Shown here: positions 12,819 through 32,194 of the stretch, piece by piece
How positions within the stretch are numbered: position 1 is the first letter of the stretch
Layout: each line of letters starts with the position of its first letter
From: Candidatus Gracilibacteria bacterium CG12_big_fil_rev_8_21_14_0_65_38_15
Lineage (GTDB): Bacteria > Patescibacteriota > Gracilibacteria > BD1-5 > UBA2023
NCBI GenBank assembly: GCA_002771035.1
Contig: PCUR01000073.1
Coordinates: 1 to 33,524, forward strand
Direction: 5' to 3'
DNA length: 33,524 nucleotides
Translations under genes and position numbers: made by a program
The notes under the pieces: generated by a model
Told to the model about the DNA's origin: nothing
Databases searched by the model: none
What the model saw: only the letters and a program-made list of their open reading frames with translations

Positions 12819-13611
12819 AATCCTTCTTCCCCTGACATACAAAGTACTCCTCGAAACTTCGTTCTCGGCAGGCTTTTGGTTTGCATTTGTGGAGTACAGT
12901 ATACCGATTTTTAATCGGACCGATGAGATCGTCGATATCTTCTCCGACGAAGACTTTCAAAACCAGAGTTCCTCATTTTCGGAGGAATATGTCGGCGATA
13001 TCGAGGATGGCGAGATTGAGCTCGACACTTCGATATTGATCGACTCCTGTTTGTCCCGTTGTATGAGTGGCGATATCTGAAGTCAGACAGTCAAGTTGAG
13101 TGATACCGAGTCATTTGAGAAATTCGACTATTGGTTCCGTTACAAATACATCTCCTTGAAGTATATGGACATTTTGGTATCCGAGACTTTTTATTTTCTG
13201 GATATCGATTCCTGCAATAATTCCGGTCGGTCCAACCATCTTCGCGAGAACCTGCAACCAACTTCCTGGAGCACTCGCGATGTCGAGAACTTTCATCCCG
13301 GTACGAATGATATTGTACTTTTCCTGAATCTCGAGAAGTTTAAAAGCACTTCGAGCGCGATATCCAAGTTTCTTGGCTTCGTAAAAATACTCGTCTCGAA
13401 CGATATATTGAGGTTTTCCGGTTTTCTTCTTCTTTTTAACTGGCTGTTCCGCGAGAATATCACGCGCCTTTTTGAGGGGTGCCGCACCGGGATGACGTGC
13501 AACCCGTATGTTTTTCTGCTTTGCAGGAACCTCTCCGGCAAGGATCCTATCCAGCTTTGTACGACGTCTCGTACGAGTGAGTTTCTTGGGTGCGGATTTT
13601 ACTGTTGACAT
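12817..13611 (-). CDS. rlmE: 23S rRNA 2'-O-ribose methyltransferase RlmE (FtsJ/RrmJ)
   Basis: 264 residues. The Rossmann SAM-binding site VLDIASAPGSWLQVL is clear, and the K-D-K-E catalytic tetrad can be assigned: YRARSAFKL lysine, TSDIA aspartate, LVLKVFVGED lysine, RSFEEYFV glutamate. RlmE methylates U2552 in the A-loop of the large subunit. The protein has a basic N-terminal extension of about 70 residues (KKLTRTRRRTKLDRILAG, then AEQPVKKKKKTGKPQ) that the bacterial family, usually about 200 residues, lacks; it probably binds rRNA. One TGA-glycine at 13111 joins the two halves. Starts 54 bp from the divergent DHH gene. Confidence 0.92.
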
Positions 13612-15106: not shown

Positions 15107-15217
15107 TATTTTAAATAAGTGAAGGATTTGATTCAAAACATATCTTTTTTGGAAACTTTTTTAAAAATGATCACACGGCCTCGATAAATCTTTTATAAGG
15201 TCCGGTGACATGTGAAA

Positions 15218-15294
15218 TTTGTATGAAAACTGCGTACCGAAGTGAGCTGTACAAATAGTACAGAGAACGAGGAAACGTAAAGTTTGAATGCAAA
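15218..15294. repeat. structured repeat element, copy 1
   Basis: About 77 nt. Outer stem TTTGTAT/ATGCAAA, inner AAACT/AGTTT, then GCGT/ACGT. An asymmetric purine-rich internal loop (AGTGAG opposite AGAACGAGGAA) follows, capped by hairpin CTGTAC-AAATA-GTACAG at 15247-15263. Located 21 nt after the uppS stop and 111 nt before smpB. Confidence 0.75.
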
Positions 15295-15314
15295 GTTCGC
15301 TTTTTAAGAAGTTT

Positions 15315-15989
15315 CTATTTTCCAAAATTTCTTTTTGCGTCTTTCAGAGTTTCGAGTGCTTTATAAAACTCCGTTTCTTTGAAATCTGGCCAGAGAGTTG
15401 GGGTGAAATAATATTCACTGTATTCACTCTGGTAGAGAAAATATCCGGAAAGTCTCATATCTCCGCCAGTGCGGACAATGAGATCCGGTGAAGGAAATCG
15501 TCAGGTATCGAGAAATGGGAGAAAAGTATTTTCATCCAGTTTTTCGATGTCTCATCCTTCTTTCATAAATTTTTTGAGAGCCCGGACAATCTCATCCTGA
15601 CCACCATAACCGATAGCGAGAATAAAGGTCATCTTCGTACCATTTTTCGCTGTTTCCCGAGTATTTTCGAGAAGTTCTACTGTTTGAATTGGAAGAATAT
15701 CCGGATTTCCTACCCATTCGAATTTGATGCCTTTTTCTAGGAGTTTCGGGAGAAAATTCTGGATGCTTTTTCAAAGAAGTTTATAGAGATATTCAAGTTC
15801 TTCTTTACTTCTATTCTCTATATTTTTCTTGGCAAGTGCCCAGAAACTACAGTATTCCGCTCACTCATTATAACAAAGTTCAATGATATCTTCCACTCGT
15901 TTACTCCCCTCTTCGTGTCCAAAAAACGTCTGGAGCAGATGTTGTTTTGCCCATCGACGATTCCCATCCATAATAAATCAGAGGTGCAT
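15315..15989 (-). CDS. uppS: isoprenyl transferase (undecaprenyl diphosphate synthase) UppS
   Basis: 224 residues. Cis-prenyltransferase that makes the C55 lipid carrier for peptidoglycan. The N-terminal signature IMDGNRRWAKQ starts at residue 6; FWALAKKNIENRSKEEL, AIGYGGQDEI and the C-terminal PSPDLIVRTGGDMRLSGYFLYQ-like block (DLIVRTGGDMRLSGYF) are all present. The start at 15989 (MHLGFIMDGNRRW) uses a TGA-glycine at residue 4 and gives the usual short N-terminus. Separated by 9 nt from ruvX upstream. The protein is slightly short compared with the usual 230-250 residues. Confidence 0.95.
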
Positions 15990-15998
15990 AGAAAAAAA

Positions 15999-16409
15999 TT
16001 AGAGATTATTTTTTGATTTCTTGGTCGAATCCAAGTAACTCTGGAGAAAAATACTCGCAGCGACATCATCGATGGCTTTACGTGGATCTTTTCCAAATGG
16101 ATCCATGGAATTTTTCGCTTCAAAAGTCGTCAATCGTTCATCCCATTCGATGTATTTTATATCTTTCGGGAGGAGATTCCGAAGTTTTTGCTGAAATTTA
16201 CGAGTTCTGGTTGCTTGGTCTGAAACACTTCCGTCCATATGATTAGCGATTCCAATGATAATCGTATCTACCCCGCGTTCTTTTACTATCTTTGGAAGAT
16301 ATGAGAACACTTCTTTGGTCGCGATAATCGCAACCGGAAAAGCAATTTCCTCCACCGCTACCGCGAGTCCGATTTTTTTGGTTCCGTAATCGATGGCGAG
16401 GGTGGACAT
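15999..16409 (-). CDS. ruvX: RuvX/YqgF-family Holliday junction resolvase-like nuclease
   Basis: 136 residues with an RNase H-like fold. The N-terminal AIDYGTKKIGLAVA, VDTIIIGIANHMDGS, and YIEWDERLTTFEAK followed by AIDDVAASIFLQSYLD are the family blocks, with the acidic residues in place. Family members act as Holliday-junction resolvases or in 16S rRNA 5'-end processing; the second role fits its place among translation genes. No TGA codon is needed. Confidence 0.93.
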   Translation of the reverse strand: MSTLAIDYGTKKIGLAVAVEEIAFPVAIIATKEVFSYLPKIVKERGVDTIIIGIANHMDGSVSDQATRTRKFQQKLRNLLPKDIKYIEWDERLTTFEAKNSMDPFGKDPRKAIDDVAASIFLQSYLDSTKKSKNNL

Positions 16410-16471
16410 AAAAGTTGAAAGTGAATAGTAGTAATATTATTATTCGTCATCCCAGAACTTTTTTCAGAGAC

Positions 16472-16936
16472 CTATTTACTCTTTATTTCCACGTGCATCT
16501 TAATATTCACATCACTTCCAAGATTGATTTTGATATCGGTTACACCAACTTGCTTCAGTTTATGTCCTTCAGGAAGAAGGATGTGTTTTTTCTCGAGTTC
16601 TACTCCATACTTTTTCTTTATCTCGATGATGATTTCGTGTTCTCCGAGTCCTCAGAAAATCTTATCTTTGCTTCCAGCAAGCTCGAAAGTAATGGTAGTA
16701 TTATGAAGTTTTTCCGCTATTTCATGGCGGGCTTCCACGAGGTGGCTTTTATTGTCTTGAGCTTTTTTCTTTTTCTCGGCTTCTCGTTTGATAAGCTCTG
16801 GAGTTGCAAGTCTTGCGAGCTTTTTGGCGATGAGAAAATTCCTCGCATAAGCGTGGCTAACTTCGATAATCTCTCCTTCTTTTCCGACATTGGCGATACG
16901 CTCGAGAAGTTGTACTGATACAGTATTATTTGCCAT
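16472..16936 (-). CDS. rplI: 50S ribosomal protein bL9
   Basis: 154 residues. N-terminal domain VQLLERIANVGKEGEIIEVSHAYARNFLIAKKLA is the bL9 signature, followed by the long connecting helix (EAEKKKKAQDNKSHLVEARH) and the C-terminal rRNA-binding domain. A TGA-glycine at 16652 lies in the GGLGEHEI segment and is required for the C-terminal domain. It follows nusA, with structured-repeat copy 2 in between. bL9 is reported missing from many Candidate Phyla lineages, so its presence is informative. Confidence 0.95.
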
Positions 16937-16996
16937 AATGATGCGTAAATTATTTGATAATTCATCAATCTTAATATCTCCTGAAAAATGAAAAAA

Positions 16997-17072
16997 TTTG
17001 TATGAAAACTACGAACCGGAGTGAACCGTACGATTGTACGGAGAACGAGGAAGCGGACAGTTTGAATGCAAA
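16997..17072. repeat. structured repeat element, copy 2
   Basis: About 76 nt. Outer stem TTTGTAT/ATGCAAA, inner AAACT/AGTTT, then the conserved internal loop (GGAGTGAA opposite AGAACGAGGAA) and cap hairpin CCGTAC-GATT-GTACGG at 17026-17041. It lies 20 nt after the nusA stop. On the minus strand the stem is followed by six Ts, so this copy also looks like a Rho-independent terminator. Confidence 0.78.
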
Positions 17073-17092
17073 GTTATCATTTTGCAGAGATA

Positions 17093-18154
17093 TTATTTCT
17101 CTTCTTTGGCATCGAGGATGATCTTGTACCCAAGAAGTTCGGATGTGAGATTGATATTAGCTCCTCCTTTTCCGAGAACTTTCGCTTTTTCCTCTTCGGT
17201 TACTATGCATCGGATAACTTTGTTTTCCTCGTCGATAGATACTTTCTCAACCACTCCTGGAACGAGACATTTTCTCACGAGTTCTTCTCTATTGGAGGTA
17301 TAGTTAATGATATCAATCTTTTCTCCAGCGATTTCATCGACAACCGCACGAACGCGAGAACCTTTCGGTCCGATGAGACAACCTGCTGGGTCTACTTCCT
17401 CGTATTCAGAAGCGACGATAATCTTGGTTTTGAATCCAGGAGTACGAGCGATACTTACGATTTCGATTGTTCCGTCTTCAAGTTCTGGAGCATTCATCTC
17501 GAAGAGTTTCACGACAAGATTCGTGTCCTTTCGGGTGAGAGTTACACGAGGTCCAGAAAGAGTATCTTCCTCGAGTTTCGCAACAGAGAGGTAGATTCGT
17601 TGTCCTGGAGTGTATTTATCTTTGGATACTTGTTCAGATTTTGGGAGAACTACTTGGTTTCCGTTGTAGTCGAGAAGAACACGATTTTTCTCCACCATTT
17701 CCACTTTGATACTGATAATTTCCCCTTCTTTTCCTTTGAAAAGATTGAAGATTTTTTCTTTCTCGGTTTCCTGTATTTTCTGGATGATAACCTGACGAGC
17801 AGCTTGTGATGCGATACGTCCGAATCCTTCCTCATCTTCGAGGACTTCATCCGATACATCGATTTCTATCGTATCTCCGATAGAGAATCCATCTGCATCA
17901 TCTCCGAGATCTGCGAGAGTCATCTCGATATCTGGGTTTTCTACTTTCTCCACGATAGTTTTCTCAACCGTGATTTCAATCGCTCCGGTTTCAAAATCGA
18001 GATGAACATTTACTTCACTGTCTTTATTTCCGAAGTCTTTTCGGTATGCAGTCTTGATTGCCGATTCGATAATCTCTACGAGACGTTCTCGTGGTATTTT
18101 CTTTTCTGCAGAAATCTGATTGATGGCAGTTTCTATTTTTCTTATATCTATCAT
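17093..18154 (-). CDS. nusA: transcription termination/antitermination protein NusA
   Basis: 353 residues. N-terminal RNA-polymerase-binding domain (about 1-125; IETAINQISAEKKIPRERLV and IKTAYRKDFG), S1 domain (about 130-200; GKEGEIISIKVEMVEKNRVL), KH1 with VASEYEEVDPAGCLIGPKGSRV, and KH2 with EEEKAKVLGKGGANINLTSELLG-like sequence at the C-terminus. The acidic repeats found after KH2 in E. coli are absent, as in most bacteria. No TGA-glycine occurs. It heads the nusA-rplI-ruvX-uppS-smpB run, preceded by a terminator. Confidence 0.96.
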   Translation of the reverse strand: MIDIRKIETAINQISAEKKIPRERLVEIIESAIKTAYRKDFGNKDSEVNVHLDFETGAIEITVEKTIVEKVENPDIEMTLADLGDDADGFSIGDTIEIDVSDEVLEDEEGFGRIASQAARQVIIQKIQETEKEKIFNLFKGKEGEIISIKVEMVEKNRVLLDYNGNQVVLPKSEQVSKDKYTPGQRIYLSVAKLEEDTLSGPRVTLTRKDTNLVVKLFEMNAPELEDGTIEIVSIARTPGFKTKIIVASEYEEVDPAGCLIGPKGSRVRAVVDEIAGEKIDIINYTSNREELVRKCLVPGVVEKVSIDEENKVIRCIVTEEEKAKVLGKGGANINLTSELLGYKIILDAKEEK

Positions 18155-18170
18155 AAAATGAATGGTGAGA

Positions 18171-18176
18171 ATTATA
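18171..18176 (-). promoter_or_regulatory. possible nusA -10 box
   Basis: Perfect TATAAT on the minus strand, 17 nt upstream of the nusA start, just after the upstream terminator. No good -35 is visible. If used, the leader would be only about 10 nt. Confidence 0.35.
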
Positions 18177-18195
18177 AAGACTTGTCTGGTATAAA

Positions 18196-18227
18196 AAAAG
18201 AACTTGGAGGAAGCCCCAAATTCTTTT
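18196..18227 (-). terminator. Rho-independent terminator before nusA
   Basis: 12-bp stem AAAAGAATTTGG / CCAAGTTCTTTT (one T-G pair) with an 8-nt loop, then a T-run on the minus strand. It lies 55 nt after the stop of the single-TM protein gene and separates it from nusA. Confidence 0.8.
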
Positions 18228-18282
18228 CACTTCCCAAATACAAGGAAGAGTATATATATATTTTCTCTATTATCAAATTTTT

Positions 18283-19392
18283 TTACGGAGTTGGAATTTC
18301 TGCTCCTGTAAAAGTATCCTGAGGAGTTTTATTTTGGATATTTTTCTTGGTATTCTTAGTTATACTGTAATCACGACCTATTTCATAACTCGGAAGAATA
18401 TCAGATTCGACTTCCATTACAGGCGGAAGAATCGGTTCCAAATCTGATGGAGAAACATCGACTGGTGGTGTGTTTACTATCGTTTCCTGAATATTACTTT
18501 TTCCTGATTTTTCGATATCAACAGAAAGAAATGAACCGGAAAACATTGCAATAGCGGAAATAGAGAAAAGTACACCTACTCCTGCGATAATCTTTGTCTT
18601 ATTTTGCACGAAGAATCGGAATCCAGCACGACGTCCTTCACTCAGTTCTGCTTTCACTTCCGCAACGTATTCCTGAGTGATTATAGGAGAAGCTCTATCC
18701 TCCGATACTTCCGTATTAGAAACTTCATCCGGCACGAGAACGATTTTCTCTTCTTCGATGATAGTAGGTGTTTTTTCAGAAACTATTGATTTCTGAGCTT
18801 CATTAAGAGGAACAATCTCTTCAAGATCGATGAGATCATTGTCAAAATCCATTTTCCCGGAGATTTGGAAATTTGGGAAAAATTCTTTTGGTTTTACTAT
18901 TTCTACTTCTACCACTTCCAGTTTTACATCTTCTCCTCCTCAAGAGAAAATAGATTGAGATTCCTGTGAATCAATCACTTCCCCTTCTGTTACTATAGTT
19001 TCCGTTAGAATAGAAGAAATAGGGAGTTCTGTCAGAGATGGAGTACTGATGATTTCTTCTTCCTGAACGATTTGTTCCAAAGAAATAAGTGAAGATATTG
19101 TCTCTGTTTGATTTACTTCCACTTGAGGAAGAATCGCTTCGGGAACCACATCTTTTGAGATAGCTACTTCCACTGATGGAGTACTGCTTTCTATTCCAGA
19201 AGCCTGTTTCAATTTCATGAGGGAGATTTTCGGACCGGTAGCAGGGATTTTCTTCTCCGATACGTTTTCTGGAGTTTTGGAAATCTCTGGCAGAGGGATT
19301 TTCGGAGTTCCCACAGAAACAATATCTTCTCTATTGGAAGTAGGTACCGGTGCTGTAGAAATATTTTTGAGAGAATTGAGATTCAGTGCCAT
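18283..19392 (-). CDS. single-TM protein with long acidic/proline-rich cytoplasmic part
   Basis: 369 residues, not recognised. Residues 1-260 are hydrophilic, low-complexity and rich in Glu, Ser, Pro, Ile and Val, with no obvious fold. One membrane helix (AGVGVLFSISAIAMFSGSF, about 269-288) follows a basic stretch (SEGRRAGFRFFVQNKTK), which predicts N-in/C-out topology. The outer part is a 75-residue Pro-rich tail. The N-terminal LNLNSLKNISTAPVPT could be a docking peptide. One TGA-glycine at 18940 joins the halves. Its neighbours upstream are a small membrane protein and the VirB6-like gene, so a role in the same envelope machine is possible. It has its own promoter and terminator. Confidence 0.7.
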
Positions 19393-19423
19393 AATTTGTT
19401 TTATTATCTAATAATATGCGTAT

Positions 19424-19452
19424 ATACTAACATAAATTCATAGTTATGTCAA
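19424..19452 (-). promoter_or_regulatory. predicted promoter of the single-TM protein gene
   Basis: On the minus strand a perfect TTGACA, 17 nt, then TAGTAT, about 30 nt upstream of the start at 19392. Confidence 0.6.
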
Positions 19453-19480
19453 AAAATGGAACGTCTCTTTTATAAGATTT

Positions 19481-19507
19481 AAATAATCCGCCAATGGCGG
19501 ATTATTT
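19481..19507. terminator. palindromic terminator
   Basis: 12-bp perfect stem AAATAATCCGCC with a 3-nt loop, 9 nt after the stop of the 89-residue gene. The stem sequence is almost the same as that at 12789-12814. Confidence 0.8.
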
Positions 19508-19516
19508 GGTATTTTT

Positions 19517-19786
19517 CTAATAAGTAAACTCTGGTCTGTTTAAAACTTCTCCCATCATTTTTGCCTCATACTGCCGACCACCGATAGTGATAATTACTGG
19601 TTTGTTGGAACTCTGGATTTCCCTTCCAGGTCCAGAACTAGTATACTCGCCGAGATTCCCTTTCAGAAGCGCAGAATCGAGTACGAAACTCCTCTCTCCA
19701 CCGAGATAGGCTCAGGCGAACATAAGAACGGCAATATAACCGACGAGGCTCGTAGTGTTCGTTATAAGGTTATGTAACTCTTTCAT
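19517..19786 (-). CDS. small membrane protein next to VirB6-like gene
   Basis: 89 residues, not recognised. One hydrophobic segment (LVGYIAVLMFAGAYLGG, about 14-30; the glycine in FAGAYLGG is TGA at 19712) is followed by a soluble part ending IITIGGRQYEAKMMGEVLNRPEFTY. It lies between the VirB6-like gene and the single-TM gene on the same strand. Size and topology would suit an accessory subunit of the same complex, but that is inference from position only. Confidence 0.65.
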
Positions 19787-19868
19787 AAGCAAATATTTGT
19801 TTTGGTGGATAGAAGATTATGTCTTTGGTGTAATTTTAGTATATTTAAGAAAGAGCGTCAAGAGGAGA

Positions 19869-22121
19869 TTATCAGATGTCAATATTTTTATCTTTGAGTG
19901 CTTTTGTTAGTTGTTCTATAGTTATATCTTTGGTAGCTGGCACAGCTTTTAATTCTGCAAGCAATCTATCAAGCTCAGTGGTATCAATCTTTGCATGATT
20001 ATTTCATACTGCTGGAGTGGTTATGTGAACTTGAAGATCAGAAGGAGTTGTATTACCTGGTAATGTAACTTTTATTGGTGTTATATTTGCACTTTCTACT
20101 ATCTTTTCACCTTTTCCTATATAGCTATCTATATCTCCTTCTGCTACCTTTCCTTTTCCTCAAACCAAACTTCCATAACCTTTTGATTCTGAGAGTCCAT
20201 CTAATTTGGAAAGTATCTTTCTTATTTCTAGAGCATTGGTAGTATCTCCAAGAGATTTTATTAATTTAGTTGCATCTTCTTTACGATCAAATCAACCATG
20301 GTTATTAAGAGAATCTAGATGTTTTGTAAGTACACCTCGTGCATTATTATTGAGAGCAAAATTATCTGATTTTCCGGCAGAAAGCATATCTTTTGCGTAC
20401 ATTGCCGCTTCTTGCATGTTTGAGGCTGTTTTAGTCTGCAAATCAATAGATTTTTGAGAAAGCATATCTCATTTAGGTGCAAATTGTTTTCAGATTGCCA
20501 CTCATTGTTGTTGAGCCATATTGTCTAACGAGTTCTTTATTGGACCAACAATACTTCCCATTCCTGCCATACTAATACTCTTGTCTTTTCCACCTGGCAA
20601 TGGAATTGGTACATATTGTGGAGCTTTCATAGCAAGTTTTCCGATTTCATCCCCAAATCACTTAATAGGAGCAACAGCAGATTCGGTAATCTTGCTCGCA
20701 CCAAGAGCGGCCATAACTGCCATCCAGAGAATAACAAGCGCAAGAACATTTATGATAATAGTTCCGATAATACCTTTTCCTGTACTAAGAACACCGGAAA
20801 CTCCTGCCGCATTCTCTGAAGTAAGAAGTCAAACAGTTGTAAGTTTTATATCTCAGAATGTAAATGTTGTCGTATCGCCTGCAGTTTCGACAACTCTACC
20901 ATTTTCTCAGAGTTTTCAACCTGGTCATGTAGTTCCATTACTTGTCGCTCACATAACCAATCCAAGGAACATAAGTCCAAACGCAAGTGCTGCCGATACA
21001 TAGACCGGAACGAGAGCGAGGGAAATAAATTCTTTGAAAGAAAATTTCTCCAATTTTTTTGCTTTATCACCGAGCACATAAGTAAGTGCAAAAAGTGGAG
21101 AAAATATCGCATAGAGCCAGAGCATAAGAGCTCGAGAGAAAAGCGCATAGACAATAGCAATTACAAGTATTCCGAAAATAATGAAGAATATGATTCCAAA
21201 TGAAAGCTTGCTCGCGATATCCAATACCTTATTTATTCATTGTTCAACAGTAATGGCCTTAAAATCTTGAATCTTAAAAATCCCATATGCATAGACTGAA
21301 AGGAGATTATAGGCACCTCAAGTACTATTTGAAAGAAACTCTTCTATAGTAAGACAATCTGAATTTTTTCCTCCAGAACAATCAGATGCAGCAAATTCCT
21401 TATTTCTTGAAAATGATCATTCTCATCCTCCATCTGTTCCATTTCAAGTTGTTCCACTTCAAAAATCTGCTCATTTAACATAGTAAACTGTTTTTGGGAT
21501 AATTTTATCTCCTAACATTCCTGATGTTGCTGAATTTGATTTGATAGTAGAAACAGGGAGTTGAATCACCGATGCAGTGAGCACGTTTGCGATACTGAGA
21601 GTGGCACTTACGATAAACCAAGTAAATGGAACAATAAGCATTCCTGTTACGAGTTTCGGAAGCATACTTTTCATCTCATACGCTTTACTATGTTCTCCTC
21701 CGAAGATATTGGCAAATGCTACGAATACGAGTAAGAATCCGAATATTACATACACAACATTGGAAACAAGAATCCAGAGACTATGGAGAATTGGACGAAG
21801 ATTGAATATATCACCGAAAGTCCAGTCGGGAGACAGGAGCCATCCAGCGAGCATAATGAGCGGAGTAACAAGGAAAGTGAGTGTTCCTATTCCGAGATTC
21901 ATAAGAGTCACGAGAGAATCAACTGTCGTGTCTACTGGATTTGTTGCCTGTGTAGGTTTCGGAACTTCTTCCGCCATCGCACTCTGTATTCCTCCGTTCC
22001 CTATTTGAAATCCTCCCGTATTATTCATACTGAGTTCTCCACTTGTAATAAAGAGTCCGGCACAAAAAACCGACAAGAGACCGAGTCGGGAAAGTTTGGA
22101 AAGGATTTGAGATCGAAACAT
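19869..22121 (-). CDS. VirB6/TrbL-like polytopic membrane protein
   Basis: 750 residues. An N-terminal signal-like helix (LSRLGLLSVFCAGLFITSG) is followed by membrane segments near 70-95, 108-135, 155-180, 303-345, 365-390 and 430-455, then a hydrophilic C-terminal part of about 290 residues. This arrangement, with the block ALMLWLYAIFSPLFALTYVLG, matches the VirB6/TrbL-type inner-membrane proteins of type IV secretion systems widespread in Candidate Phyla bacteria. About 21 TGA-glycines occur, all after residue 216; the first third has none. The stop is TAA after a final TGA-glycine (DIG). Without table 25 this gene is unreadable. No VirB4-type ATPase is in the window. Confidence 0.72.
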
Positions 22122-22163
22122 ATTTGTTTATATTAATGAATGAGTTTTTCGCTTTCTTTTGTT

Positions 22164-22192
22164 ATTACATCATATATTTTGTTATTTTGCAA
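22164..22192 (-). promoter_or_regulatory. predicted promoter of the VirB6-like gene
   Basis: On the minus strand TTGCAA, 17 nt, then TGTAAT, about 40 nt upstream of the start at 22121. Confidence 0.45.
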
Positions 22193-22284
22193 AAATTCTC
22201 GCCTACTTTTTTGAATTTTGTGGTTTTTAACGATTTATCGATTCAGGAGGAAAAGAAAAGAAGTTTTTACTTTGGGTGATTTTT

Positions 22285-22313
22285 TTGATTTTTTCGGCAT
22301 TATAGGATATACT
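22285..22313 (+). promoter_or_regulatory. predicted promoter of the 1256-residue protein gene
   Basis: TTGATT at 22285-22290, 17 nt, then TATACT at 22308-22313. The predicted leader before the ATG at 22345 is about 25 nt. It is divergent from the VirB6-like promoter. Confidence 0.6.
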
Positions 22314-22344
22314 CGTGAGGAATTTATATATTTCTCATACAAAT

Positions 22345-25300
22345 ATGGCAAAAAATAATGGAAATACAGGTATCGATGGAGTTGAACAAGTAAATACCCA
22401 GAAACCGAAAAAAACAGATGAATCGATGACAACTCGTGCAATTCGTGATTTTATCGAACATAAACTTCTTGGGGATGATGGTGGGAAAAATTTCAACGAA
22501 ATTACTTCCAATAAAGGGAATGGATTATCGGAGGATTTTTTGAAATTTCTTGCTAAAAAACCTGAATTTGATGAGCAATCAAATGAGCAAATTGAATCAT
22601 TCAAGTCCGTGAAAAACGTACAATTTCTTCGTGAAACCCTCCGAATCGGTGTCGGATTTGAGACAAAACAGGAGGCTTTAAAGAAGATTATTTTTGATGA
22701 ATATGAAGGGTTAGATAATGCAATGAAGAAAGATTTTGATAATCGCGTAGATACTATGTCTCTTGCGAATCTTACCTATTATCTTCGCAATTCTTCCGAG
22801 CGACATAAATTTGTAAAACTTACTCTTCCAAATACCCCCCTTAAGAAAAAGGATTTTCTTGCATTTTTGGATTCCCTTGAGATCGACGGAACAAAACTAA
22901 CTGAAGAACAAAAACATTCGTTTCTCTTTATTCAAGGGCTCAATCATGTAGACGAAAAGGATATTGAAAATCTCCTTTTGCTTTTCCCCGAAAACAATCT
23001 TGAACAAAAACAACTTCTCATTCGAGCATTTCTTCCGACAGTCTCTTTGGGCGATCTCGTACGGATGCGAATAATAACAGAGTCAGAAGCACGCAGAGTC
23101 GTAAAAGAGAAATTAGATACGAAAGGGGTTTTTAAAGATATAGAGAATATTGATACGGAAATTGAAGCTTTTATAGAGAGAGTGGACTTAGACGAAGTCA
23201 TTATTCCAACGAAACTTTTTCCTGAAGAAGTGGTAAATAAAATTTTATCAACCGAATGAGTTAAAAAAATCAAACAAGAACTCAATGAGCTTTTTGATGA
23301 GCTAAAACAAGATGTACGTGATGAATTTGGACTCACTTCTGATAAAGAAGGGAAATATCTTCCATCTCTCATAAAAAAAATCCAAAAAGAAATAATCGGA
23401 AAGAATGGAAAATGTCTTGTGGAAAATGTCAAAAATCTCGGGGAAGGAACAATTATCCATGGACAAATCCAGGAGTGATCAGAAATACGAAATATATATA
23501 TCCGAATCGATGCTATTAATACAAATTCAGCTCATGAGACTGGAAAAAAGACGATGACAATAACACATCTCACGGGACCAAAAGGCACAGTTATACAAAA
23601 TCCTTCGGCTACAAAAACAGAACCAACTGTCAGTTTCCAAGATTTTTTTTCGCTCCTCAGGGTTTTTAATAAATCAGAAATACTCGATGTAAAAACATTT
23701 CAGGATTCGATCAACACAGGAGTAATACGGGAAGTTGTGGAAGATGGAGATATAAAAACTCTTTCTGATCTTAATAATAAACTCGATACGATTGATGGTC
23801 AAGGAAATAGTTTTCATTTCAAAGCTGGGAAAAAGACATCTTTCTCTATTTTTACTCCTACTGATCCAGAGTTCGGTATTTTTAGTGTACAAGATATCGA
23901 TGAGTCATCCCATACTTTAAAAGTAAATACGGGGACGAAAATAGAAGGACCATATACATTTGATGAATTTTTCTTCTTCTTTAAAGAACAAAAAGGAGCA
24001 CGTATGCATGGACTCGAAAATCTTGAGACAACTCTTCAACTTATTAAGAATAAAGCAGGAGGTGCTAAAAATTACAAAGATATAGAATATAAGGATGGGA
24101 AGCTTATTCCATCAGATCGGAAAGATGATAAGAATTTTGAGGGAATCAAATATTTTGTCGGGAAGAATGGAGAAGTGATCGAAATCGTTAAAGCAGAAAA
24201 CAACCGTGTTCAGATCGCATTTCACGATGGCTACAAAGAAAAGAAAGAGAAAGATAAGAATGGAAATGAGATAAAATCTTATGAAACAAAAACACGAACA
24301 AATCCATTGTGGTATGGGTGGGAGATTTTCTATATGAAGCATGAAGAACTCAGTGCTGAGCCAAAGATATTTCAAGCTCCAATCGAACCAGAGGAAGTCA
24401 AAGAATCGCCAGACAAAATGAAACATGGTTTTCTAAAACATTATCTTGGAAATTCGAGTCTCCATGACATATTTGGTGCAGGAAAACAAATCGTTGACTT
24501 CGTGAAACATAAGCTTGAACATAATTCAAAGATGAACGCCGCAAAACTAGCCCTATCTCTTGGAAAAACAATGGGATTCAGTGATGAATGGCTCATGGAT
24601 CTTCGAGGAAGTGTTCATGCTAGTAACAAGAAACTTACAGATGAACTTGTTGATGAACTAGGAAAACTTCCAACTCCTATGCGTCATAAACGTACCCGTG
24701 ATATACTTAATAATCACGGTTCACATGACTATGAAATCCATGCGGCAATGATTTCAATGCTTAAAAAGCATTGAGGATTATATGCAGGTGGACTCAAAGA
24801 TCTCGAAGGAACTTATGCATGGTACAAGGCTCTCGGCGGAAAACCGAATGATACTTTTATGATGAAAACAAAAGAGAATCTTACTAGGAAAAATGAACCT
24901 TTCCGAGAAGAAACACTTCTACGAGAATGGCTTAAACATCTCGGGAGTGAGAAAGGATGATATCGAGTAGATGGTAATCTCTGGATTCAGGCTTTCAAAA
25001 TTGCTTGGCAAGAAGGAATCGAATGAGAAGCGAAGAAGGGAGAATCCGAAACGGCGGAAATGCAATTTATTGACGCACGTATGGATTATGTTTTCGATAA
25101 ATGGAATGGAAAAGAATATGCAAACGGTGTTGGAGCGCTCAGAAAAGTTTGGAGCAAATGAGGAACTCCAGAGCAGATGCAAGAAGGAGCTTTTCTTCTC
25201 GCAATTACAGATATACCAGAACACCTCGCACAAGGGCAAATCAATGGTCTTAAGAATGAATTCTATGGAGGACATACGTATCCTGGACTATTATTCATAG

Positions 25301-26115
25301 GAAGTCCTCAAGATCAAAAGATATTCCGTAGAGTTGTTGAAAAACTCGTAGATTCTGATTCCGATATGAAGATAGCATACGCAGAAATAAAGAAATTATT
25401 GGAAAATGATCCAAAAAAGAAACTTGTTGAAACGACCAAGAATTTTTGGAGAAAATACGGACATATACTCGCCCCAAAACTCGCGATGACAAAAGATCCT
25501 GAGATATTCGACAAAAAAGAGGAAGATGAAGATTTTAAGGCATATTCTGAAAAATTATCAGGAAATCTTGCCGATGTTGGAAAAATCGATTCTGGTGAAA
25601 AAGAAAATCATATGTATGATTACAATCATACATCTTTTGCTCTCGCAAATATGAAACGTTATGTAGATGAAATGGATGTGAACTCAGGAAATGGAAATAT
25701 GAATAATGAGAAAGAGAAGTACTTTTTCGAACAATTAATTAAATGAATCGATGATATAAAGAATCAGAAAAGACATCTAAATCCAATAAATGATCAAGAA
25801 AAGAATGAAAACATAAAACTTCAAAAGAAGATATATCGCGAGTATCATAAGAATATTCTCGCACGATTATCAGATCGTCTCAATGGAGATGCATTTGAAA
25901 AACTTGAAACTCAGCCATATATGAAGCGCTTGATGCGACTCTGATTTACAAAACCTTCATCCAACGAGGAAACTGAATTAATCGGTAGTGTCTACGATAT
26001 GCATCTTGAGCGAGATTTTAATAAGTACATTAATTCCAATAGCACTATTGAGGAAGCGGAAGACAAAACTCTTGATTCCTTGGAGAAAATATTGAAAATA
26101 CATAATCAGGATTAA
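22345..26115 (+). CDS. very large hypothetical protein (1256 residues)
   Basis: Not recognised. No signal peptide and no membrane helix. Residues about 1-40 are Asn/Lys/Gln-rich and probably disordered. Residues 40-400 are mostly helical and charged. About 400-480 is beta-rich (VKNLGEGTIIHGQIQE, YIRIDAINTNSAHETG, MTITHLTGPKGTVIQ). About 540-680 looks like two small beta/alpha units (FGIFSVQDIDESSHTLKV; KYFVGKNGEVIEIVKAENN). The rest is helical, with LWYGWEIFYMKHEEL as a memorable block. Eight TGA-glycines occur (e.g. 23257, 23476, 24772, 24958, 25741), so standard translation gives several fragments. The ATG at 22345 is preferred to a GTG at 22315. It is monocistronic, with its own promoter and strong terminator, divergent from the VirB6-like gene. 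A cytoplasmic scaffold or a secreted effector are both possible. Confidence 0.75.
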
Positions 26116-26142
26116 TTTGATTTCTCGTATTACGGTAATTTA

Positions 26143-26172
26143 AAAAAACCTTCCGAATTCGGAAGGTTTTTT
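26143..26172 (+). terminator. Rho-independent terminator of the large gene
   Basis: Perfect 30-nt palindrome, A6-CCTTCCGAATTCGGAAGG-T6, 28 nt after the stop codon. It lies just left of the insertion sequence. Confidence 0.92.
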
Positions 26173-26189
26173 ACTGATTTTACTTTTTA

Positions 26190-26219
26190 TGGGTAAATAG
26201 AATTTTTTGCGTGCTACTT
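26190..26219 (+). repeat. IS left terminal inverted repeat
   Basis: 30 bp, the exact reverse complement of 27276-27305 over at least 29 positions. The transposase stop codon (26214-26216) lies within it. Confidence 0.88.
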
Positions 26220-27193
26220 GTTATTCCGAAAATAGATCCAAAGTGCTACAAAAGAATATAATCTGTGTTCTGATAATCATTTATGTTCATTGATTCATTC
26301 GTTGGTAAAAACTCAGAAGTATCATTCCAGTTTGTTCGTTGATCTTTCGATGTTGCTATCAGTATACCGATAGCCCTGAAACATATATGGCAGAGCATTG
26401 TCGATATGCTTCATTGCTTTTCTAAGACTCGTATGAGTAAAGATCCATCATCCCTTTCGGGAGATGGATCTTTCAGTAAGATACGGGAGATGTTTTTCTT
26501 TCCACTTCTCAAACAGTTTCGGGAAGAGTAGAGGATTTGAAAGAGGAGGATAATTCAAGATATGAAGTAAACTTACTCCTGCCTCGGATTTCGGATGATT
26601 GGATATATAATTGATCACTTGTCTTTGGATATGTACCAGACAACGCTGAATGATGGAGTTTGGATACACGGATTTTATGGCGGAGAGAATGCTCGGAGAA
26701 CCATCTATGACAAAAACTGTTATCTTATATCAGAAAGAATCTCGTAGTATTCGTAAGTCATGAACTATCGCATCTTTGTTTTCAGAGGAAGTCACACTGA
26801 ACCAGAGAACCTTCTTGATGATATACTCGTAGTACACAAGGAGTATTTTCCCTCATGGAAGATGGTATCAATCTATCATGACATATCCTACGTTATCAAA
26901 GTACTCATCTATGTGTAGTAACCTATTTATTCTCATCCAATCTCTTTTGAATATCAAGACGAACGAGATACTCTTGTCTTCCTGATTGGTTTGCTATCTG
27001 TCGTGCTGAATATCACTCGATGATGTATTGGTTAAACCAGAATTTAGTCCTGAATTTTGTTTCTTGTTTCTGAACTTTTCTTTCTACGAAACGATATTTA
27101 CACGTTTTGCATTGTAAAGTGGAATTTCAAACCATATTTTTCCCATTTCTCTTGATGGAAGTACCAGAACATTTCGGACATTTTTTTTCTCAT
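26214..27193 (-). pseudogene. IS transposase, DDE type, with two frame breaks
   Basis: Corrected length about 325 residues. Order: N-terminal zinc ribbon (MRKK-CPKCSGTSIKRNGK and LQCKTCKYRF), helix-turn-helix region (YSARQIANQSGRQEYLVRLD), then the catalytic domain with Asp in VGYVMIDGYHLPGG, Asp in VFVIDGSPS followed by IIQRCLVHIQRQV, and Glu in RSTNKLEGYFG, ending GLSEHRLYILFVALWIYF. The QRCLVHxQR block and the zinc ribbon suggest the IS1249 branch of IS256. Two +1 breaks occur: an A8 tract right after the start (27181-27188), and near 26945 (AATAAATAG). Removing one A at each restores one frame. About ten glycines are TGA. It may be inactivated, or expressed by slippage. Confidence 0.75.
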
Positions 27194-27275
27194 TTTCACT
27201 ATGAAAGTTATGAAGTAAAACTTTATGACAGTTTTATCATAACCTTTTGGCTTGAAATACATAATTTTTGTTCCA

Positions 27276-27305
27276 AAGTAGCACGCAAAAAATTCTATTT
27301 ACCCA
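27276..27305 (-). repeat. IS right terminal inverted repeat
   Basis: 30 bp, mirror of 26190-26219. It lies about 80 bp upstream of the transposase start and may carry its promoter. Confidence 0.88.
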
Positions 27306-27429
27306 AAATAATTCAAGGAAAGGTATTTTTCTGCATAAATTTATTAGAAATAATAATTAATTATTAATGCGAATTATTCTATAGTTAGAACTTAAGTAAA
27401 TCTTAATACTAGATGGAGTATTACAAATA
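27306..27429. other. intergenic, IS to NifU-like gene
   Basis: 124 bp, very AT-rich (TAATTAATTATTAATG). No gene and no clear terminator hairpin seen. Confidence 0.4.
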
Positions 27430-27843
27430 TTATCCAGATAATACATCACTAAAATCATCTACTATTCCATCCTGAAGATACTTATGAATCGCATTACGAA
27501 CAGCGAGAAGTCCAAGCACACTTGCCTGTTTACGACGAGATGAAACCTGAAATCCTATCATCTCACGAACTGTTTTTTCATCCATTGTAAGAATCTCCGA
27601 TATATTCATCCCTATAATCAATTCTCCGAATATACTCGTACAGGCAGTCGTAACTATTGCAGTATTTCCTTCGAATGAAAAATCCTCTATCGTTCCTGTA
27701 TCATCCAACTTCAGAAACACTTCCAGAGCATCTCCACAACTCCGGTTTTCTTCGAAATGCCGAATAGTTACATCTTCCAAAATCCCCTTGTTCGGGGGAT
27801 TTTTTGCATATTCGAGAAAGGTTTCGGTATAAACCTGGGACAT
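27430..27843 (-). CDS. sufU: NifU/SufU-like Fe-S cluster scaffold, third cysteine missing
   Basis: 137 residues. Scaffold of the IscU/SufU/NifU-N fold that receives sulphur from the cysteine desulfurase encoded just upstream. Cys36 in ENRSCGDALEV and Cys68 in TTACTSIFGE match the first two cluster ligands; the Asp after CG is present. The third ligand, usually in a [KR]-C-[AS]-x-L context, is replaced: SSRRKQASVLGLL has Gln106 there. All other scaffold features are kept, so this is a family member with altered chemistry rather than a wreck. 38 nt after the sufS stop. Confidence 0.85.
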   Translation of the reverse strand: MSQVYTETFLEYAKNPPNKGILEDVTIRHFEENRSCGDALEVFLKLDDTGTIEDFSFEGNTAIVTTACTSIFGELIIGMNISEILTMDEKTVREMIGFQVSSRRKQASVLGLLAVRNAIHKYLQDGIVDDFSDVLSG

Positions 27844-27881
27844 ATAGAATGATAGAAATATTAGGATGATGGAATTCTTTT

Positions 27882-29108
27882 CTACTTCGCACTCGATAAT
27901 ATTTCTTCAAACGCATCGAAAAACTTATTCACATCTTCTCGAGTATTATAGAGAAAAAGACTCATTCGGACACTTCCAGTAATTCCATGACTTTGCATAA
28001 GCGGTTCGGCACAGTGATGTCCGGCTCTGACACAGATTAAACGATCAGCGAAAGCATCGGAAATATCGGAAATATGCATAAGTTCCGTCGCAAAACTAAA
28101 TACTCCTATTCTTCCCTCTTCTTTCTCGGATCCTATTAATCTTACTTCTGGAAATTGTTTCTTGAATATTTGCCACCGGGCAAGTGTACATTGTACGAGT
28201 TCTTTTTCGATTCGTTCAATTTCCGTATATCCGCCGATGGATTCTATAAATTCTATGGCTCGGAGGAGACTTCCTGCTCCGATGATATGTGGAGTTCCTG
28301 GCTCGAATCGTGATGGAAGTCCTGCCGGAGCGAAACTATCTTCATGAACCCAATTAATTGCTCCACCTCCGCCGATAGAAGGAACGAGTGTTTTTAGAAG
28401 TGATTTTTTTCCATACATAATACCGATTCCCGTATCGGACATACATTTATGTCCCGTGAACACGAGGTAATCGATATCGAGAGTCTGGACATCCACCTTG
28501 AAATGCGGAACTGCTTGACTTGCATCCACGACGAACAAAATCGCCGGGTTTTTAGAACGGATGATGTCGCGAACTTTCGCAAGGTCAAAAACCGTTCCTG
28601 TGACATTCGATGCAGCCGTGAGAGAAACTACCCGAACATCTCTCGTTAGTTTCGCTTCGAAATCCGCGAAATCGAGTCCAAAATCTGCATCGAGTCCGAT
28701 GAACTCCACTTCAATTCCAGCTGTTTCCTTGGCGATGAGCCACGGAACAATATTCGCATGGTGCTCCGCACGAGAGAGGAGAACTTTGTCTCCTTTCCCA
28801 AGTTGTCCAGAATGAACAAGGGAAGTCACAAGGATATTGAGTGCCGAAGTTGCATTGTATGAATACGAAATCTCTGCGGTTTCCCGAGCATTGATGAGTC
28901 GTACGACCGCTTCCTTCGACCCATGATAGAGTACTTCTGAAGCTTCCGAAAGATCATACGCACCACGATGAATGTTCGCATATTCTTGCTCCATATGATG
29001 TTTCATTCCTTCTATAACCAAACTCGGTTTCTGTGCCGTCGAGGCACTATCCAAGTACACCATATCTGGATGGTGCGAGAAAACAGGAAAATGAGAGCGG
29101 AGAGACAT
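27882..29108 (-). CDS. sufS: cysteine desulfurase SufS
   Basis: 408 residues, PLP-dependent group II cysteine desulfurase that takes sulphur from cysteine. Seen: YLDSASTAQKP, ANIHRGAYDLSEAS, SRAEHHANIVPW with the PLP-stacking histidine, VVDASQAVPHFKVDVQ with the PLP aspartate, FTGHK with the Schiff-base lysine, SRFEPGTPHIIG, and RAGHHCAEPLMQ with the catalytic cysteine. The residues after the lysine (CMSDTGIG) differ from the usual MYGPTGIG. No TGA-glycine is needed. Placed 14 nt after tyrS and followed by the NifU-like scaffold; sufB, sufC and sufD are not in the window. Confidence 0.95.
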   Translation of the reverse strand: MSLRSHFPVFSHHPDMVYLDSASTAQKPSLVIEGMKHHMEQEYANIHRGAYDLSEASEVLYHGSKEAVVRLINARETAEISYSYNATSALNILVTSLVHSGQLGKGDKVLLSRAEHHANIVPWLIAKETAGIEVEFIGLDADFGLDFADFEAKLTRDVRVVSLTAASNVTGTVFDLAKVRDIIRSKNPAILFVVDASQAVPHFKVDVQTLDIDYLVFTGHKCMSDTGIGIMYGKKSLLKTLVPSIGGGGAINWVHEDSFAPAGLPSRFEPGTPHIIGAGSLLRAIEFIESIGGYTEIERIEKELVQCTLARWQIFKKQFPEVRLIGSEKEEGRIGVFSFATELMHISDISDAFADRLICVRAGHHCAEPLMQSHGITGSVRMSLFLYNTREDVNKFFDAFEEILSSAK

Positions 29109-29122
29109 AGATATTTTATAAA

Positions 29123-30325
29123 TTATTTCGCAAATATATTTCGGAATTTCTTTTTCCCCATCTGCACGAGCGTTCCTTTCTCAGAAGAAAGAAAAATTGT
29201 CATTTTTGCATCGGAAACGACAGTGCCATTCACTCGGACACTTCCACCCGAAAGTGCATTACGAACATCTCCGGTAGTTGCACAGAATTTAAGTTCTTTC
29301 AGAATATTTCAGAGTTCCATCTCAGAAACACTCAAATATATTTTCTCAATCTCATCTTCACTCGGAACAATTCCATCGGTGAGTACTTTCTCAAAGTACA
29401 TTTTTCCAGCGATTGCTGCTGCCTCGCCATGATAGAGTGAAACGATGATATGAGCCAAATCCATCTTGATATATTTTGGATTCTCATCCGATAAAAGCCG
29501 TGCTTTATATGGTTCGATTTCTGAAAGAAGAAGTGTTGTACAATGAACAAAATATGGGAGAATAAGTTCATCTTTAATCTCCATAATCTTCACGAACATT
29601 TGGTTCGGAGTATCGGAAAGTCCGATGAAGTTCTTGTAGGTTTTACTCATCTTACGACCATCGGTTCCCTCGATGAGATTAAACATCATAATATCTTGTT
29701 TTTCCTGACCATATGCTTCCTGAAGCGTTCGCCCGGCAAGGAGATTGAAGTACTGGTCATTTCCTCCGAGTTCCACATCGGCTTTCACTTGAACACTATC
29801 CCAACCTTGCATAATCGGATAGAGAAATTCTTGGAGAGAAATACGGATTCCTCCGTTGTATCGTTTGGAAAAATTATCACGATCGAGCATCTCGGCAACT
29901 GAGAAATTTTTGGCAAGTTCTCCGACGGTATTGAAGTTCGTCGTATCCATCCACTCGCTGTTGTAATGAACTTCCAGTTTCTCCAAATCGAGAATCTTCC
30001 CGAACTGTGCGAGATAATTTTCGGCGTTCTTTCGAGTTTCTTCACGTTTAAGCATCGGACGTTCCGCATCTTTGTCGGAAGTATCTCCTACTTGAGCGGT
30101 CGCATCCCCGATAATGAGGACAATTTGATGCCCGAGTTCCTGAAAAGCACGGAGTTTCAGAATAGGAACCGCATGTCCGATATGAACCACCGGTGCTGTC
30201 GGATCGATTCCGAATTTAATACGGAGTTTCTTCCCTGATGTGAGTTGCTTCTCCATGTGTTCTCGATCAATAACACGAGAAACCCCCTTTTCGAGGAGGT
30301 TTTGTATTAAAATTTCTTGTGTCAT
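29123..30325 (-). CDS. tyrS: tyrosyl-tRNA synthetase TyrS
   Basis: 400 residues, class I synthetase charging tRNA-Tyr. HIGH motif at about 48-51 (VVHIGHAVPIL), KMSKS-like motif GRKMSKTYKN near residue 230, and a C-terminal S4 RNA-binding domain (DVRNALSGGSVRVNGTVV). The S4 domain is reached only through a TGA-glycine at 29309. The sequence type is the TyrRS-Z (HIGHA/KMSKT) group common in many bacteria. The start at 30325 follows an orphan gene by 8 nt, so it is translated in a run with clpP upstream and sufS downstream. Confidence 0.96.
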
Positions 30326-30333
30326 AAGAATAG

Positions 30334-30585
30334 TTAGTTAAGTATTCTCCATTGTAAATCCCCTTCTTTGGCATTCATTATTTTCTGGACTTTTGCAACG
30401 GAAAACGTCCGTAAATTGCTTACCATAAATCACTCTGGATGTGTATCGGTCAAATAAAGTTTATAATATTTTTCATCATTTGACGCTACATCGTCCGGAA
30501 TACCGATTTTTCCGTTACGAAGAGAAGAAGGAGGTATTGTTCAGATTTCCTGAACAATGGCGTAACAACACAAAGGAGTGTTCAT
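30334..30585 (-). CDS. small hypothetical protein between clpP and tyrS
   Basis: 83 residues, not recognised and too short to stand out in a standard-code scan because of two TGA-glycines (near 30541 and 30430). It starts MNTPLCCYAIVQEIGTIPPS and ends MNAKEGDLQWRILN. It is soluble, without a signal or membrane helix, with a Cys-Cys pair at residues 6-7. It sits 43 nt after the clpP stop and 8 nt before tyrS, which supports translation. Confidence 0.7.
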
Positions 30586-30628
30586 AATTTATTTATTATT
30601 GATATGTATTTTTGTTTTGCAGAAATTT

Positions 30629-31252
30629 CTATTTATTCACGATAATCTTATCGATAAGTCCATATTTGAGAGCTTCCTCAGGAGTCATATAATTGTCGCG
30701 ATCACAGTCTTTTTCTACTTGTTTTATGTCTTTTCCAGAATGTTTCGCGAGAATACCATAGAGAGTATTTCCTGTTTTGATGATATGTTCCGCAGCGATT
30801 CGGATATCGGTTGCTTGTCCTTCTGTTCCACCGAGCGGTTGATGAATCATAATTTCGGAATTCGGAAGACTGTATCGTTTTCCTTTTGTTCCACCTGCAA
30901 GGATAATAGATCCCATGGATGCAGCGAGTCCGATGCAGACAGTGATAATATCACACTGAACGTATTGCATAACATCATAGATAGCGAGTCCTGCCGTTAC
31001 GTGTCCTCCTGGGCTATTTACATAAATAGTAATAGGAGCTTTTGGATCCTGTTTTTCGAGATAGAGAAGCTGAGCAATAACTGTATTGGCAACTGATGCA
31101 TCGATAGCATCACCGAGAAATACCACACGATCTTCGAGAAGTCGAGAATAGATATCGTACGCTCGTTCCTGACCACCGACTTTATCGATAACCGTTGGGA
31201 TAAGAGTTGCCTGAACTTGTTTTTTCTTCTTTTGAATACTTTGAAGTGTCAT
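30629..31252 (-). CDS. clpP: ATP-dependent Clp protease proteolytic subunit ClpP
   Basis: 207 residues, serine peptidase that forms the barrel degrading proteins unfolded by ClpX or ClpA/C. The catalytic triad is assigned as Ser112 ([10 protein letters not shown]), His137 ([10 protein letters not shown]) and Asp186 (DCDRDNYMT). The oligomerisation region and axial loop ([30 protein letters not shown]) are normal. No TGA-glycine is needed. ClpB does not feed ClpP; no ClpX is in the window. Structured-repeat copy 3 lies about 50 nt upstream. Confidence 0.97.
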
Positions 31253-31303
31253 AGGAAATGAGATTATAAGTAAAGGTATTGGAAATGTGTAAAAACGAAA
31301 TAA

Positions 31304-31380
31304 TTCGAGTGCAAATCGGGAACCGGAGTGAACCGTACGAATCAGTACGGAGAACGAGGAAACGAAGATTTAAGCTCGAA
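31304..31380. repeat. structured repeat element, copy 3
   Basis: About 77 nt. The outer stem is different in sequence but still paired: TTCGAG/CTCGAA, then AAATC/GATTT. The internal loop (GGAGTGAA opposite AGAACGAGGAA) is the same as in the other copies, and the cap hairpin is CCGTAC-GAATCA-GTACGG at 31333-31350. It lies 25 nt after the pilin stop. Confidence 0.78.
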
Positions 31381-31405
31381 GGATGAGTTTTTCCGCGTTT
31401 CCTAA

Positions 31406-32194
31406 TTAGAATCCGCTGATTGGATAGGCTACACGCGTATTCGCATCGAACGTACTTCCGTTGTAGGATTCCCCATCTTTGAGATTATTATTTGTTGTAC
31501 CGCTTCCGATAAGTGTATCCGGACAATTGATACAAGTGGATTTATCGAAATTACCGGAAATCTTGGTGATTATACCCTTTTGATCATCGGAAACAACAAC
31601 GGCGAGATTATAGGCAGAACCTTTTTTGGAAGTACTATCCCAAAGAGTATTATTTTTTGCATACACCCCATAAACATATTCTCCGATTCCATAGTCTTTG
31701 AGAGTTTCTGTATTTCCCACTTTTATATCCTTAACGGAAGGATCGGAAAGTTCCTGGGAGAGGTATTGTTTAGGGAGAACATCTGAATCCATTGTTCCTT
31801 TTGCACCAACTTTATTTACTGCACTTCCAGATTCATAAACAATTCCTCCTCCAACAATTGAACCAGTAAGAACCGTGACTATTGCATCACCACTTTTTGT
31901 TCCAGTAAAAGTATTTGCAATAGTGGCACTTGTTGCACTATCGAATCCCCATACATTTGTATCTGCATTATATATCGAAGGCATCGGATAGTAATTCTTG
32001 TCGACAAAGAAGGTATTGAGTCCTGTTTCGATATTTCCGATATGATTCAGTTTCGTTGCATTTTTCGCCTTATCGGTAGAACCAGAAAAACTTGTATAAG
32101 CAGTGATACTGATAATTGCAAGAATAGTAATAACGACCAAAAGTTCCACAAGTGTAAAACCACGAGTAGGAAAAACAATATTCTTCTGTTCCAT
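31406..32194 (-). CDS. type IV pilin-like protein
   Basis: 262 residues. The leader ends PTRG and is followed by FTLVELLVVITILAIISITAYTSF, a textbook prepilin N-terminus with Glu at +5. Cleavage after Gly would give a mature chain of about 250 residues. The pseudopilin-like body has KNATKLNHIGNIETGLNTFFVDKNYYPMP (in pieces), as in major pilins and type II secretion pseudopilins. A C-terminal CINC pair may form the disulphide of the D-region. No TGA-glycine occurs. It has its own promoter and lies between the CRISPR array and clpP. Confidence 0.88.
   Translation of the reverse strand: MEQKNIVFPTRGFTLVELLVVITILAIISITAYTSFSGSTDKAKNATKLNHIGNIETGLNTFFVDKNYYPMPSIYNADTNVWGFDSATSATIANTFTGTKSGDAIVTVLTGSIVGGGIVYESGSAVNKVGAKGTMDSDVLPKQYLSQELSDPSVKDIKVGNTETLKDYGIGEYVYGVYAKNNTLWDSTSKKGSAYNLAVVVSDDQKGIITKISGNFDKSTCINCPDTLIGSGTTNNNLKDGESYNGSTFDANTRVAYPISGF

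Follow-up and report, generated by a model that had tools for sequence, protein, structure and literature searches.

A family of palindromic, probably mobile elements between and inside the genes of Gracilibacteria

The Rickettsia palindromic elements (RPEs) are repeats of about 100-150 bp that form a long stem-loop and are reported in many copies, some in spacers and others inserted into conserved protein genes without breaking the frame (PMC2229807, PMC10969869). Here we describe a palindrome of comparable size and in many copies that is likewise inserted in frame in conserved protein genes, but in another phylum. Three of its copies lie in a stretch of 33,524 nucleotides (the window) from Candidatus Gracilibacteria bacterium CG12_big_fil_rev_8_21_14_0_65_38_15, which is contig PCUR01000073.1 (C66) of a 74-contig genome of 1.01 Mb (G000) translated with code 25. 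With a probability of roughly 0.8 we consider these copies to be members of a family of non-autonomous mobile palindromic elements of Gracilibacteria, some 120-150 bp long, that are kept paired while their sequences drift and are translated where they lie in genes. The family is apparently undescribed. It is akin in kind to the RPEs; common descent with them is not claimed.

In the excerpts available to us, RPEs are said to lose the identity of their repeats over time (PMC6649704) and their peptides are reported to be conserved (PMC2229807, PMC10969869, PMC6649704). In contrast to what those excerpts describe, the Gracilibacteria element keeps its pairing by compensatory change and encodes a peptide that is not conserved. 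It further differs from the RPEs in that copies lie antisense immediately after stop codons and that most of its in-gene frames need TGA to be read as glycine. The repetitive extragenic palindromes (REPs) of E. coli are 20-40 bp long (PMC3733652, in part); 446 of 4,072 lie no more than 15 nt from a stop codon, and REPs so placed reportedly affect translation termination or the stability of the mRNA (PMC12306157, in part). Like REPs and bacterial interspersed mosaic elements, the present elements are dispersed palindromes, some of them close behind stop codons. However, their unit of 120-150 nt is longer, Y1_Tnp, the domain of the REP-associated tyrosine transposases (RAYTs), was not found in several genomes that are rich in them, and their stop-codon rule is much tighter than in the available part of the REP report and is tied to orientation.

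The enterobacterial repetitive intergenic consensus (ERIC/RU-1) is described as a repeat of 127 bp with a long stem-loop and an orientation-dependent effect on mRNA, and several bacterial families of miniature inverted-repeat transposable elements (MITEs) are known that are fused in frame to genes (both from the accessible part of PMC2229807). The Gracilibacteria element resembles these in length and in its long stem-loop; unlike MITEs with a target-site duplication, it shows no significant excess of flanking repeats (113 copies). Finally, the byp elements of Magnusiomyces mitochondria are described in the excerpt at hand as palindromes that interrupt coding genes and are transcribed but untranslated (PMC6649704). 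The Gracilibacteria element interrupts coding genes as well, but its in-gene copies keep the reading frame. Among titles and opening lines of abstracts in the open-access literature we recognised no description of such elements for Gracilibacteria or the candidate phyla radiation, and the accessible part of a published Gracilibacteria proteome study makes no mention of them.

Dispersal, fold and strand-biased covariation

The initial annotation had described three copies with a common internal loop and changed stems, all of which were found where it had placed them. The invariant loop strand AGAACGAGGAA occurs 17 times in the genome, versus once for the same pattern read backwards, and 16 of the 17 occurrences are by reading copies of one structure (L010 is not a copy). 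The prediction of further copies was borne out: a covariance model (R1) built from 15 copies of the genome gave at least 69 matches in it at E<=1, at least 67 of them below 1e-6; these are lower bounds, as scoring covered 150 of the 897 initial candidates. The 69 matches make up about 0.9% of the genome. Their copies have a median pairwise identity of 0.62 (maximum 0.92), and the family is old and diverse.

R1 matches were obtained in 19 of 59 genomes, G000 included. All seven genomes of the genus carry the family (10 to at least 59 matches each; 61 in G005), as do 10 of the 20 others in the family-rank group (at least 59 in G013, 24 in G022 and 1-4 in the rest) and 2 of 32 genomes in other families of the order, the matches at family rank and beyond being few and partly weak. 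In a class-wide draw 22 of 288 genomes were matched, with weak matches beyond the order. A scan of 257 billion bases of contigs with a 17-base pattern returned 44 stretches, 19 from Gracilibacteria, one from Peregrinibacteria and 24 from others; the latter 25 were set aside because about 60 chance occurrences are expected. No record with Rickettsia in its title was among the 44, which is weak evidence on sequence homology to the RPE families. The element was not found in viral contigs by exact pattern, and a search of phages and plasmids with a single copy gave no match. In line with the initial annotation, which knew of no described family with this loop, Rfam gave no match in the window at gathering scores; at E<=1 the loci of the three copies had one match, which is under its gathering score and outside the element.

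Each copy is an imperfect hairpin of 120-150 nt. Its conserved centre consists of a CCGTAC-type cap and, next to it, the AGTGA / AGAACGAGGAA loop; one possible reading of this loop is a GT/AC step flanked by tandem G-A mismatches. Outward of the loop follow short helices interspersed with purine mismatches (G-A, A-A), and the sequence of the outer stem varies from copy to copy with pairing kept in most. By reading, three kinds of outer arms can be distinguished, starting with CTCAAAAACGAAG, CTGAAAAATGATG and GAAAGAACGATAA; sorting by regular expressions is crude and two sortings disagree, and we claim no counts for these subtypes. Five copies in G000 reach 148-168 nt because an extra hairpin has been inserted in them. 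A nested, small GC-rich hairpin (GCCATAGCTCCCCCTTGTGGGG and variants) was seen between outer and inner arms in L003, L087, L105, L106 and L108 of G000 and in L225 and L228 of G005; that of L225 sits in the KsgA gene, in frame.

The stems covary, exceeding shuffled and slid controls by almost all measures. In an alignment of 71 distinct rows (A3, fitted to the model) 95.2% of the cells are paired and 272 cells are doubly changed, where shuffles give 98.4 +- 10.3 and slid controls 10-35; it has 46 pair types versus 39.0 in shuffles. A MAFFT alignment of 15 copies (A2), scored on its own consensus structure, is 97.2% paired and has 42 doubly changed cells, versus 13.8 +- 3.8 in shuffles and 0-4 in slid controls. 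Between relatives that hold the element at the same site (16 pairs, including three comparisons within one trio of sites) 93 of 144 changed pairs are still paired, 54 of them by a double change. These comparisons show selection on pairing, though not strictly at one site, since replacement by another copy could mimic them. The selection on folded structure that had been suspected from three copies is thus strongly supported, both by the covariation and by the compensatory changes at the same sites.

Covariation is biased towards one strand. When the plus strand is folded, G-U pairs outnumber A-C oppositions 184 to 47 (71 of 156 genus copies), whereas folds chosen for the minus strand of these copies show no such excess (43 versus 55). 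Since the G-U excess is confined to the plus strand, it is this purine-rich strand that seems to fold. Its fold is the stronger of the two in 134 of 144 copies; for window copies 1, 2 and 3 it beats dinucleotide shuffles with z-scores of -6.9, -3.7 and -4.3, versus -3.7, -1.5 and -2.9 for the opposite strand. We propose that the folded single strand is what the mobility machinery would recognise, and that pairing is kept while sequence drifts because of this recognition.

Presence and absence in relatives

The element is absent at window sites 1 and 2 in all six genus relatives, and at site 3 in all five relatives seen there (G002 was not seen). Together with the dispersal, and with genes of the window that are empty alleles of in-frame insertions elsewhere (Table 1), these empty sites strongly support the suggestion in the initial annotation of a small mobile palindrome. 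At other places, orthologous sites do hold the element at the same position and in the same orientation, sometimes as another subtype; only equal orientation was searched for in this comparison. At one such site L079 (G000), L209 (G005) and L068 (G006) represent three subtypes.

Site 2 shows further variation. G004 has an apparent remnant of the right end that is identical to the window copy; G006 has a different palindromic sequence (GTCATTCTGAG..., L122, near 1640-1760), and G005 (L123) and G002 (L125) have what looks like a small reading frame. The other sequences in G006, G005 and G002 indicate that this spacer takes other insertions too.

Mobilisation by a RAYT/Y1 transposase was considered and rejected. 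Y1_Tnp matches are present in five of 27 family genomes, with one in G000 and 14 in G002, and the domain was not found in several element-rich genomes. In the window itself, 26214-27135 holds a two-piece, putatively transposase-like reading frame.

Antisense copies behind stop codons

The position of copies between genes was studied for 126 copies of four genomes that had not been flagged by the open-frame search described below, a set that includes a few later placed in genes (L085, L219, L229). Distances were taken from model ends to stops called by our own simple gene finder, because the detection of stem boundaries fails for some copies. In 102 of the 126 the right neighbour is on the minus strand, and in 84 of these 102 the stop codon of this neighbour is placed at -6..+2 relative to the model end; the same holds for 14 of 17 convergent pairs. 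A sense stop within -6..+8 of the left end is found for 3 of 31 copies with a plus-strand gene on the left. In four of the 12 exceptions in G000 the stop is located within the model span, 16-17 nt from its end.

The three window copies are of this kind (Table 1). Their neighbours are presumably uppS, nusA, a pilin, smpB, rplI and clpP, names assigned by reading. The distance of 20-26 nt after the stop reported in the initial annotation turned out to be an artefact of ending the element at its inner stem: the elements extend further out, the uppS stop (15315-15317) falls inside the model span of copy 1, and the outer stem of copy 2 includes the complement of a stop. In copy 1 the left outer arm (window 15130-15218) is swapped for another dispersed sequence, CTCGATAAATCTTTTATAAGGTCCGGTGACATGTGAA, which is also present in L097 and L108 of G000 and has DNA matches in copies of G004, G002 and G001.

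Table 1. Element copies, outer-stem arms and empty alleles in the window
Feature	Position	Strand	Remarks
Copy 1	15192..15320	+	covariance model match; smpB/uppS spacer, antisense to both genes
Copy 2	16971..17098	+	covariance model match; rplI/nusA spacer, antisense to both genes
Copy 2 outer stem, left arm TAATATCTC	16972..16980	+	
Copy 2 outer stem, right arm GAGATATTA	17087..17095	+	ends in the complement of the nusA stop (three bases)
Copy 3	31278..31406	+	covariance model match; clpP/pilin-like gene spacer, antisense to both
Copy 3 outer stem, left arm GGAAATGTG	31281..31289	+	
Copy 3 outer stem, right arm CGCGTTTCC	31394..31402	+	3 nt off the stop codon of the pilin-like gene
rlmE-like gene	12817..13611	-	empty allele; in-frame copy at the same site in G005 and G003
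sufS-like gene	27882..29108	-	empty allele; in-frame copy at the same site in G005

A long stable hairpin at the 3' ends of genes is suggestive of a transcription terminator or a 3'-end processing hairpin, and on the plus strand a T-run follows it in mild excess (16 of 73, compared with 8 of 73 at the control position). For the strand present in the mRNA of the neighbouring gene, however, T-runs are no more frequent than in the control (13 of 73 versus 15 of 73), and 7 of 14 convergent copies are accompanied by a separate terminator of the ordinary kind, a hairpin with a T-run. The window copies have no terminator-like site, and copies also occur inside genes. A terminator, one of the roles offered in the initial annotation, is thus rejected, and we regard termination or processing as a very improbable function of the element. 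GC-rich hairpins with a T-run were seen between the convergent plus-strand gene and the element in the left flanks of L037, L079, L082, L084, L095, L160 and L209. The locus-specific outer stems had also led to the idea that the element was inserted into the loop of a pre-existing terminator hairpin; this was dropped because the outer stems, by reading, follow the subtype consensus with compensated variants. At the relatives' empty window sites no hairpin with the window outer stem was seen by eye.

The orientation behind stop codons puts the weaker fold in the mRNA (mean about -32 versus -41 kcal/mol). A preference for certain targets, or selection against a strong fold in untranslated mRNA, are our guesses for the origin of the rule. 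Mobile copies may survive where they do little harm, and the place right after a stop codon, mostly with the weaker fold in the mRNA, could be one such position.

A former mobile palindrome could also have been kept by the host, the hairpin by the stop acting on translation termination or mRNA stability. The tight placement at stops, including convergent pairs, would fit such a role, as would the numerous compensatory changes that preserve pairs at shared sites in relatives, the unchanged place and orientation of the element in these relatives and, by analogy, the effects described for E. coli REPs near stop codons in the available part of PMC12306157. However, the better-folding strand is antisense to the mRNA of the adjacent gene, relatives manage without the element at three window sites, and folding is equally good inside genes (mean -41.6 against -40.8 kcal/mol). 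We find retention for this function unlikely; it is compatible with a mobile origin and not exclusive of it. A wider version, in which the host now uses the mobile hairpin in place, both behind stops and inside housekeeping genes, for gene expression, with selection preserving the folded strand at fixed sites and with subtypes exchangeable while the site is kept, is a tentative proposal that we rate slightly higher but still as doubtful.

In-frame copies inside genes

In a first search that took open frames only, 28 of 172 copies were found within open reading frames, all in sense orientation. Judged by reading, their hosts presumably include MurB, RimO/MiaB types, PheT, DinG, TilS, KsgA and Dus, and furthermore UvrD types, UvrA, RecG, RlmE, SufS, ValS, CysS, RsmB and others. 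A stricter test, which asks for a coding signal on both sides, left 24 sense copies and one antisense copy of the 172; it keeps 22 of the 28 and adds L062 and L074. Twenty of the 24 sense copies share one phase. The single antisense copy (L085, G000 C73) is in frame too, in a gene that we take to be radA.

Pfam confirmed all five host proteins that were tested (RimO, KsgA, SufS, TilS and Dus). The insert lies inside one Radical_SAM match in RimO and inside RrnaAD in KsgA, and the domains of SufS, TilS and Dus are each matched in two stretches. Compared with an empty allele, where one is available, the insert adds about 41-51 residues: 41 in SufS of G005 (222 versus 181; the window sufS and three relatives are empty) and 51 in RimO of G000, the latter as deduced from the DNA. 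The SufS insert maps between residues 187 and 192 of the solved SufS chain 5j8q. In the KsgA loop that holds the element in G000 and G005, G004 (L051) has an unrelated-looking insert, HPNPLLKGEGI...SPLLLGEGSGVRG.

With TGA as a stop, 22 of the 28 in-gene copies would have no reading frame that runs through the element uninterrupted. The encoded peptides are of two kinds among the 28 and are not conserved; in one pair, the RlmE copies of G003 and G005, different frames are used in the middle of the element. Such copies may be tolerated in loops of the protein, in frame and translated with TGA as glycine, and since the frame is kept they are probably not removed before translation.

Alternatively, the insert could be removed from the RNA by splicing, or skipped by translational bypassing as in Magnusiomyces mitochondria, so that the protein is unaltered. 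The inserts do break up conserved enzyme domains, the strongly folded strand is in the mRNA for 24 of the 25 strict in-gene copies, and the encoded peptide differs between RlmE copies. An open frame, on the other hand, would be needless if the insert were skipped. Moreover, 13 further sense or unclear copies (8 in G000) were read and gave no clear case of a gene interrupted out of frame, although this test is not fully unbiased, as the first gene search demanded an open frame and only part of the remaining copies were read. We therefore hold removal or skipping to be improbable.

Several observations weigh against a mobile element that is kept paired and translated. In G000 no copy pair exceeds 92% identity, which gives no hint of a recent burst; target-site duplications are not found beyond chance (113 copies versus shuffled flanks, z -1.3 to 1.9). 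No transposase could be tied to the element by the Y1_Tnp search of the 27 family genomes, the domain not being found in G001, G003-G006, G013 and G022 despite the abundance of copies in G005 and G013. The differing subtypes that related sites often hold at one position and in one orientation are not explained by plain descent, and the stop-codon position does not follow from the proposed mechanism. As to pairing, pair types in A2 are below those of shuffles (16 versus 18.3) and 51 of the 144 changed pairs in the same-site comparisons are broken. Translation of the inserts, finally, is deduced from sequence.

In-frame palindromes that code for protein are best known from Rickettsia, and a rich case in a recoded candidate-phylum lineage indicates that the phenomenon recurs. 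Compensatory evolution, and a position behind stops that is tied to orientation, set the element apart from the cases described in the parts of the literature available to us. Protein alignments and structure models of Gracilibacteria will encounter these inserts, which, if translated as their frames predict, would provide dozens of natural experiments showing which places in enzymes can accept an insert of 40-50 residues. If the host does use the element, a hairpin would take part in gene expression in an organism that no longer uses TGA as a stop codon.

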